Virus record (IMG/VR): IMGVR_UViG_3300024431_000029
Coordinates: 1 to 20,963 of that record
Source: a virus
Length of the DNA: 20,963 nucleotides
Strand: one strand, 5' to 3'
Notes under the pieces: generated by a model
What the model was told of the DNA's origin: nothing
The model's input: only the letters and a program-made list of their open reading frames with translations
Databases searched by the model: none
Shown here: positions 19,455 through 20,963 of the stretch, piece by piece
How the letters are laid out: the number at the start of each line of letters is the position of its first letter
How positions within the stretch are numbered: the stretch's first letter is position 1
Translations under genes and position numbers: made by a program

Positions 19455-19717
19455 GACGGATCTTCGCACTCACACTTGGTGGAATTGCACCAGGGAACAT
19501 CTTCTGGATTTTTCAAGGCACGCACACTCGCATTACGCAACTCATTATCCGTGAACAGATAACAGGTTGTATTGTGTACATTCCCTTCGTGACGCCCTCG
19601 CATAGCGAAGTAATAGGGATTAGCTGCACGATGCCGGCCTTTGTTCTCGACGGCAAATACATCACCAGTTTCAGTGTCAAACAAACGTCTAACTCTATTT
19701 ACTAAATTTCTTAACAT
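19451..19717 (-). CDS. Unassigned 88-residue protein
   Basis: Unrecognised. The protein begins basic ([20 protein letters not shown]), contains NPYYFAMRGRHEGNVHNTTC and LFTDNELRNASVRALKNPED, and ends with a Cys-rich stretch (PWCNSTKCECEDPS) that could bind a metal or form a disulphide. Its ATG shares a base with the guaC stop (TGATG) and its own stop overlaps the gp33-like start, so it is translated as part of the guaC-33-59 unit. Confidence 0.7.
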   Translation of the reverse strand: MLRNLVNRVRRLFDTETGDVFAVENKGRHRAANPYYFAMRGRHEGNVHNTTCYLFTDNELRNASVRALKNPEDVPWCNSTKCECEDPS

Positions 19718-20775
19718 CAGTCATCCTTCTGGCGGCACACCCGCACGAATGTAGTACACTTGGGTAGCTGCTTCAAGTATTTAGCACCAACGTAAGTGCA
19801 ACACGAACGCAAACCACCCAAAATTTCTTGTAAAGTATCCTTGACCGGTCCTCGGTCAGGGACTTTAATTGTCTTACCTTCAACGGCACGATAGATTGCA
19901 ACCCCACCGTTATGCTTGTCTTGTGCTTCGCGGGAACTCATACCGTAGAATGCTCGACCGTCGAACATTTCCGCAGCACCACCTTCGTCATGGCCAGCAA
20001 GCATACCACCAAGCATCACGAAGTCAGCACCGGCACCGAATGCCTTGCAGATGTCCCCCACTTCTTTGCACCCACCGTCAGACATAACGTAGCCACCCAT
20101 ACCATGAGCGGCATCTGCACACTCAATAACCGCAGAGAGTTGTGGATAACCCACACCCGTCTTGCTGCGAGTTGTGCAAGCTGAGCCCGAACCGATACCA
20201 ACCTTTACAATATCAGCGCCAGCGAAAATCAATGCTTCGGTCATCTCGTCTGTAACAACATTACCTGCAACGATGATTGATTTTGAATAGAGTGTGCGGT
20301 AAAATTTGACTCGTTCAACCAGCTTTTCCATGTAACCGTTTGCAACGTCGATACAAAGTAGATGGGGAAAGAATTCTTGCCAGTCCGGTCCAGGGATAAC
20401 CTCCCGAACACGGGCTGTTACTTCTTGTAGTTTCTGGTAATCTTCATCCTTCACACCAACCGTATAGAACAGATTAGCCCAGCGAGCATAATCTACTTCG
20501 CCGGATGGAACGAAAATATCGAAAAGCTCATCAACGCTATGGTGCTTGTGTAGTGCGGTGGTCATATCAAACTTGGCAAGCTCGGTGGCCATCTCAAACG
20601 TACCGACACCATCCATATTTGCTGCAACGATAGGCACACAAGACCATGTGTTGTGCGAGTGACGCATTTTGAATGTTCGGGCAAGCTCGACCTGACTTCG
20701 ACTCGTAAGCGTAGTTCGCTTCGGTCGGATGAGGACATCGCTAAAATCAAGTTTCAAATCTTGTTCGATTCGCAT
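19717..20775 (-). CDS. guaC: GMP reductase
   Basis: A 352-residue GMP reductase (E. coli GuaC 347). It converts GMP to IMP and ammonia using NADPH, returning guanine nucleotides to the branch point of purine synthesis. I start it at ATG 20775, giving [20 protein letters not shown], which aligns with E. coli [20 protein letters not shown]. Visible landmarks are [37 protein letters not shown], the active loop [20 protein letters not shown] with catalytic C200, [20 protein letters not shown], and [15 protein letters not shown]. There is no CBS insert, and the length and AEGK region favour GuaC over IMP dehydrogenase. The Shine-Dalgarno is weak (TTGGA). It lies just after a tmRNA and heads the co-oriented run with the 88-residue gene, gp33-like gene and gp59. 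It is probably an acquired metabolic gene for nucleotide supply. Confidence 0.95.
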
Positions 20776-20796: not shown

Positions 20797-20826
20797 GGGG
20801 CATGACAGGTTTCCCTGTCATGCGCC
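20797..20826 (-). terminator. Strong hairpin with GAAA tetraloop between tmRNA and guaC
   Basis: On the minus strand the arms GCATGACAGG and CCTGTCATGC pair perfectly around a GAAA (GNRA) loop, with two more G-C pairs beyond one mismatch. The bases that follow are C- and T-rich (CCCCTTTCC) but do not form a proper U-tract. It may terminate or mark the 3' end of the tmRNA transcript, or act as a processing or stability element at the head of the guaC mRNA. The call as terminator is tentative. Confidence 0.45.
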
Positions 20827-20963
20827 TGTGTTCTGTTCACAAGCTAATCATCTAGCTCGGCTAACCTGACGTATCAGGCAGCAAGACGGAGCGTGTTGGC
20901 GCCGTTTAAAAGTTTGCCACCGTTTTACGAGTCTGTGACAACTCGGCTGCCTCCAGTCACTTC
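20825..20963 (-). ncRNA. ssrA: tmRNA, mRNA-like piece with tag ANTLRLAA, 5' part beyond right edge
   Basis: Read on the minus strand, this stretch has the tmRNA plan. Pseudoknot PK1: stem 1 CGAG (20945-20942) with CTCG (20931-20928); stem 2 TTGTCAC (20941-20935) with GTGGCAA (20920-20914, one G-U pair). Even the bases match E. coli in GCCGAG and CTCGTAAAA. Thirteen bases after PK1 a frame begins GCC AAC ACG CTC (20900 on) and reads ANTLRLAA then TGA (20876-20874): starts A-N and ends L-A-A, as most tags do. The tag end lies in a helix like H5: GCTC (20892-20889) with GAGC (20858-20855), then CCTGA and TCAGG closed by a TACG loop. A further hairpin is at 20843-20825 (CTTGTG with CACAGG). No T-arm or acceptor end follows before guaC, so the gene is probably circularly permuted, with the tRNA-like part off the right edge. 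The 3' end shown is approximate. Confidence 0.85.

Follow-up and report, generated by a model that had tools for sequence, protein, structure and literature searches.

Probable tag-coding half of a permuted (two-piece) tmRNA gene beside guaC in a T4-like phage

Does a T4-like phage known from one environmental virus record carry its own tmRNA and, if so, where is the tRNA-like part of that RNA? The window analysed here is the whole record of 20,963 bases, which has genes for baseplate, tail, SSB and helicase-loader proteins of the T4-like type and whose right end cuts into the putative tmRNA gene on the minus strand. We read the feature, with a probability of about 0.9, as one half, the coding one, of a tmRNA (ssrA) gene of the rare circularly permuted, or two-piece, form in a T4-like phage. 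Its elements are listed below; related viral contigs carry L numbers.

20904..20963, minus strand: 5' part of the coding piece, comprising the last bases of the tRNA-like 5' half/P2 strand, truncated where the contig ends, then PK1 and spacer; read from the sequence, the extension in L003 and PK1 covariation with L010/L011
20945-20916, minus strand: PK1 pseudoknot, stem 1 CGAGU/ACUCG, stem 2 GUCAC/GUGGC
20874..20903, minus strand: tag frame GANTLRLAA-stop, resume codon GGC (20903-20901); orthologous ARAGORN tag GTYEYRLAA
20860..20882, minus strand: H5-type hairpin closing the tag, GCU(G)CCUGA-UACG-UCAGG(UU)AGC, with the stop codon within the stem
20824..20873, minus strand: noncoding stretch of 50 nt after the tag, identical in L010
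20800..20823, minus strand: terminal hairpin GCATGACAGG-GAAA-CCTGTCATGC, 10-bp stem with covariation
19717..20775, minus strand: guaC (GMP reductase, phrog_9582), directly downstream of the tmRNA, ATG at 20775

The order on the minus strand is GAAGTGACTGGAGGCAGC-CGAGUUGUCACAGACUCGUAAAACGGUGGC (PK1)-12 nt-GGC GCC AAC ACG CUC CGU CUU GCU GCC UGA-UACG-UCAGG, then the 10-bp hairpin and guaC. Taken alone, the window is suggestive only, because ARAGORN makes no tmRNA call on it, no family reaches gathering in an Rfam scan of it, and its end alone scores 14.7 bits (E 0.0004) against RF00023, with PK1 and tag aligned, and misses the gathering threshold of 47 bits. A standard one-piece tmRNA was rejected, as only the hairpin and guaC follow H5 and there is no T arm downstream of the tag. 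Left of the tag, no T arm or acceptor 3' strand was seen in the window, and none is expected there since the gene is permuted and cut by the contig end. By our reading the acceptor half is located upstream, past the end of the contig, and only the tag-coding half is inside the window; the tRNA-like acceptor half is absent from it because the contig ends.

Relatives were gathered by a GuaC search and then by a wider search with a GuaC protein alignment, which gave L010 and L011. The contig of L002 (GuaC 90% identical) begins almost at the same base as the window's end. L003 (GuaC 88% identical) is 27 bases longer and reaches the acceptor stem, its extra bases being the 5' tRNA-like half GGCTGAACCGGTATCGACTGG. 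It gives a 5'-truncated match to RF04321 of 26.7 bits, below gathering (47); both the window and L003 end inside the gene and neither reaches this threshold. Pattern scans of IMG/VR for the acceptor half belonging to the window's own sublineage did not find it and returned only contigs of the L010/L011 type. The contig ends themselves cluster near the tmRNA: those of the window and L002 lie within one base of each other, that of L003 follows a little further on, and L004 ends inside guaC. These shared ends probably reflect an assembly break at sequence common to co-occurring relatives. In bacterial genomes the tag-H5 pattern had one match, in Amycolatopsis, with no ARAGORN tmRNA call there, and we took it as chance.

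The complete gene is found in L010 and L011, whose GuaC is 71% identical, directly upstream of guaC. Both are called as permuted tmRNA by ARAGORN and by RF04321 (71.4 bits against a gathering of 47), and the two genes are nearly identical to each other. The L010 gene runs from the T arm through CTGCTCC-A, a 21-nt intervening sequence, GGGGCTG, PK1, tag and H5 to the terminal hairpin; the acceptor half, upstream of the 5' tRNA-like half, comprises the T arm (CTGGGGTTCGAATCCCC) and CTGCTCCA, ahead of the intervening sequence and GGGGCTG. Of the seven acceptor-stem pairs six are standard or G-U, including the alanine-type G3-U70, and one is a U6-U67 mismatch; CCA is not encoded. Against the beta_tmRNA model RF01850 L010 scores 52.3 bits, under the gathering of 84, and L012 and L019 score 111-117 bits. 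An upstream exonuclease ORF in L010 (phrog_298, PD-(D/E)XK) has its stop at 1716-1718, a point that the modelled acceptor half already covers, since the RF04321 match starts at 1692, and the overlap with the 3' end of the ORF is L010:1692-1718. The T stem begins about 8 nt after the TAG stop of this ORF. A search of the phage collection with the L010 tmRNA gave no match.

On this comparison of sequences, L003, L010 and L011 settle that the feature is a tmRNA. The core of what an earlier note had claimed, that a T4-like phage encodes a tmRNA of its own next to guaC, thus holds, as the complete gene is present in the orthologous L010/L011 loci. There, once flanks are included, both the covariance match and the tRNA-like domain are found, and the window simply stops too early. 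The note had the identity right; the permuted form went unrecognised in it.

The finer anatomy was also largely as the note had described it. Both stems of its PK1-type pseudoknot are present at 20945-20916, before the resume codon, and in the five-sequence alignment each forms with compensatory changes (A-U to U-A in stem 1, A-U to G-C in stem 2), stem 2 of L010/L011 having one U-U mismatch. The tag-closing H5-like helix with its UNCG loop lies at 20878-20865 (core CCUGA-UACG-UCAGG) and is invariant in five relatives except for the loop (UACG/UCCG) and the bulge. The short frame described there as ANTLRLAA-stop, beginning at 20900, stands in its frame and its LAA-stop (stop at 20874), but its start codon does not. 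The most likely first codon of the tag is the preceding GGC at 20903, 12 nt past PK1, which would give GANTLRLAA plus the charged Ala, because the RF00023 and RF04321 alignments place the GGC of the window or L003 at the resume codon, as ARAGORN does in L010/L011 (tag GTYEYRLAA, resume GGC). In E. coli the bases preceding the resume codon are UAGUC, and the UAAAC before GGC fits this pattern better than the bases before GCC. In the window and in its relatives the tag ends in a protease signal and stop; its N-terminal part varies (ANTL vs TYEY) and RLAA-stop is kept. The note had suggested that the phage may need the RNA for the many broken mRNAs of late infection or may use it to retarget proteolysis; the kept LAA end would speak mildly against a changed protease.

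Within the 50-nt stretch after the tag two mutually exclusive helices can be drawn, AGCUA/UAGCU (20857-20842), with one compensatory pair change, or GCUUGUG/CACAGGC (20844-20824), and the helix directly after H5 is therefore ambiguous. The terminal hairpin with its C/U-rich tail has a predicted energy of -18.5 kcal/mol, 8 of its 10 pairs are changed on both sides among relatives, and in L010 it lies where the beta_tmRNA model has its 3' hairpin; it probably marks the 3' end of the tmRNA transcript.

The anatomy of a phage tmRNA and its conservation are observed in the sequences. For covariation, five sequences, which represent only about three lineages, were aligned across the whole coding half, and PK1, H5, the following helix and the terminal hairpin were scored. 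In this set 96.4% of cells are paired and 11 pairs are changed on both sides, most of these compensatory changes sitting in the terminal hairpin; none of 500 shuffles reaches the observed value, and slid controls give 19-37% paired. An alignment widened to 11 phage tmRNAs placed PK1 of L010/L011 wrongly and was left out of the results. In the stretch that separates the tag stop from the terminal hairpin the window equals L010 at 50 of 50 positions, whereas third codon positions of guaC are 47.5% identical. Covariation and this identity put the tmRNA elements at more than chance, and the conserved noncoding bases together with the compensatory changes show, at the level of sequence, continuing selection. 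As a side observation, L024:2136-2275 and L026:2042-2181 share near-identical flanks and tag and have clearly different PK1 sequences, as if PK1 had been swapped as a cassette.

How would such a gene work? Two-piece processing, charging through G3-U70, use of host SmpB and LAA-directed proteolysis are established tmRNA biology, and by analogy we propose that the phage gene is expressed and that its RNA is processed, charged and used for tagging. With the gene order of L010, the PD-(D/E)XK exonuclease ORF would be followed by the acceptor half (T arm and acceptor 3' strand), the 21-nt intervening sequence, the 5' tRNA-like half, PK1, tag, H5, terminal hairpin and guaC. Host tRNA-processing enzymes would cut the precursor into an acceptor RNA and a coding RNA that stay paired, and the host CCA-adding enzyme, AlaRS and SmpB would complete the complex. 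No smpB was found in the 12 phage records searched, most of them fragments, so host SmpB would be needed. The complex would then enter stalled ribosomes, add Ala-GANTLRLAA to the nascent chain and allow release at UGA, and the LAA end would direct the tagged product to ClpXP-type proteases. The simplest guess is that the gene keeps rescue RNA available to the phage when late translation is heavy.

It is also conceivable, if quite improbable, that the RNA is a tmRNA-derived inhibitor or decoy that acts chiefly by titrating host SmpB or by blocking trans-translation in the host. A TLD-only/TLD-like RNA of mycobacteriophage DS6A has been proposed to inhibit endogenous tmRNA (PMC4131195, PMC11915505), and the U6-U67 mismatch in L010 would fit such a role. 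However, G3-U70 is kept, and the tag frame, PK1, H5 and RLAA-stop have all persisted through changes in the N-terminal residues of the tag, a pattern that indicates selection for a tag that is translated. The virulent T4-like gene content likewise sits badly with a decayed or host-derived ssrA fragment, left for example by integration or imprecise excision. Integration into host ssrA is common, and prophages do contain ssrA fragments (PMC9004378), but the complete gene in L010/L011, the 50 conserved noncoding bases and the compensatory changes make such an origin very improbable here. Least credible of all is a leader element of guaC, an attenuator or cis-regulator resembling part of a tmRNA by chance: the position directly upstream of guaC and the hairpin at the end would suit it, but the orthologous L010/L011 locus is a full permuted tmRNA by two methods, which contradicts this reading, and in most guaC relatives the two are not adjacent, a gap of at least several hundred nt separating tmRNA and guaC.

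Continuing with the two-piece tmRNA, guaC is a common neighbour that lies outside the RNA itself; its homologue is annotated as GMP reductase in the homologous phage RAS14. In 46 of 80 related guaC-bearing viral contigs, L010/L011 included, the 3 kb upstream of guaC contain a permuted tmRNA on the guaC strand. Their tags are mostly ANDD...ALAA, one contig (L060) having an implausible tag. The linkage thus recurs in environmental T4-like phages; our literature search found no paper connecting tmRNA with GMP reductase in phages. A rather unlikely idea is that a guaC-linked lineage evolved short, Gly-start RLAA tags that alter the handling of rescued peptides, making it functionally distinct from the competing host tmRNA. 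If so, such tags might, for instance, evade a host adaptor that reads the N-terminal part of the tag while ClpX recognition is kept. Two-piece genes are missed because their halves are permuted and contigs can break inside them, upon which standard tools stay blank.

Phage tmRNAs were already listed in PMC4131195, and RF04321 is described in PMC11915505. A survey found tmRNA in 402 of 18,146 phage genomes; 53 of 133 unique phage tmRNAs were two-piece, 50 of these 53 from marine or aquatic phages (PMC9004378). With the permuted tmRNAs of RF04321 and RF01850 the present gene shares gene order, T arm, G3-U70 acceptor stem, PK1, LAA tag and terminal hairpin. It differs in its Gly resume codon, its short encoded tags of 9 residues (GANTLRLAA/GTYEYRLAA), the missing encoded CCA, the acceptor half overlapping an upstream ORF and the beta_tmRNA score (52 vs 84). 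In the guaC phages L012-L087, too, a permuted tmRNA precedes guaC on its strand, but with longer tags of the ANDD...ALAA type (ANDDSFTPMALAA and similar), an Ala resume codon, spacing from guaC and RF04321 scores of about 136-144 bits. The Stenotrophomonas phages (Menderavirus, e.g. Yut2 PV130723, L091) combine a T4-size genome with a permuted tmRNA called by ARAGORN, but theirs sits in a tRNA cluster and has the tag VAANDDSYTVRIAA; guaC is not among the annotated genes within 3 kb of it. The two ends of the ARAGORN call at L091:2980-3353 run into annotated tRNA-Leu and tRNA-Thr, and the tag ends in IAA, not LAA. Methylophilales phage Melnitz and its relatives also encode a permuted tmRNA in an aquatic T4-like myophage; the ssrA of Melnitz shows affinity to the alphaproteobacterial lineage, is associated with a glutamine riboswitch and has a transcription coactivator gene downstream of it (PMC9004378), whereas the present tmRNA relates to beta-type models and has guaC as its neighbour. 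Phage two-piece tmRNAs are thus already published (PMC9004378, PMC4131195), and the present gene is a divergent addition, a branch with unusually short tags.
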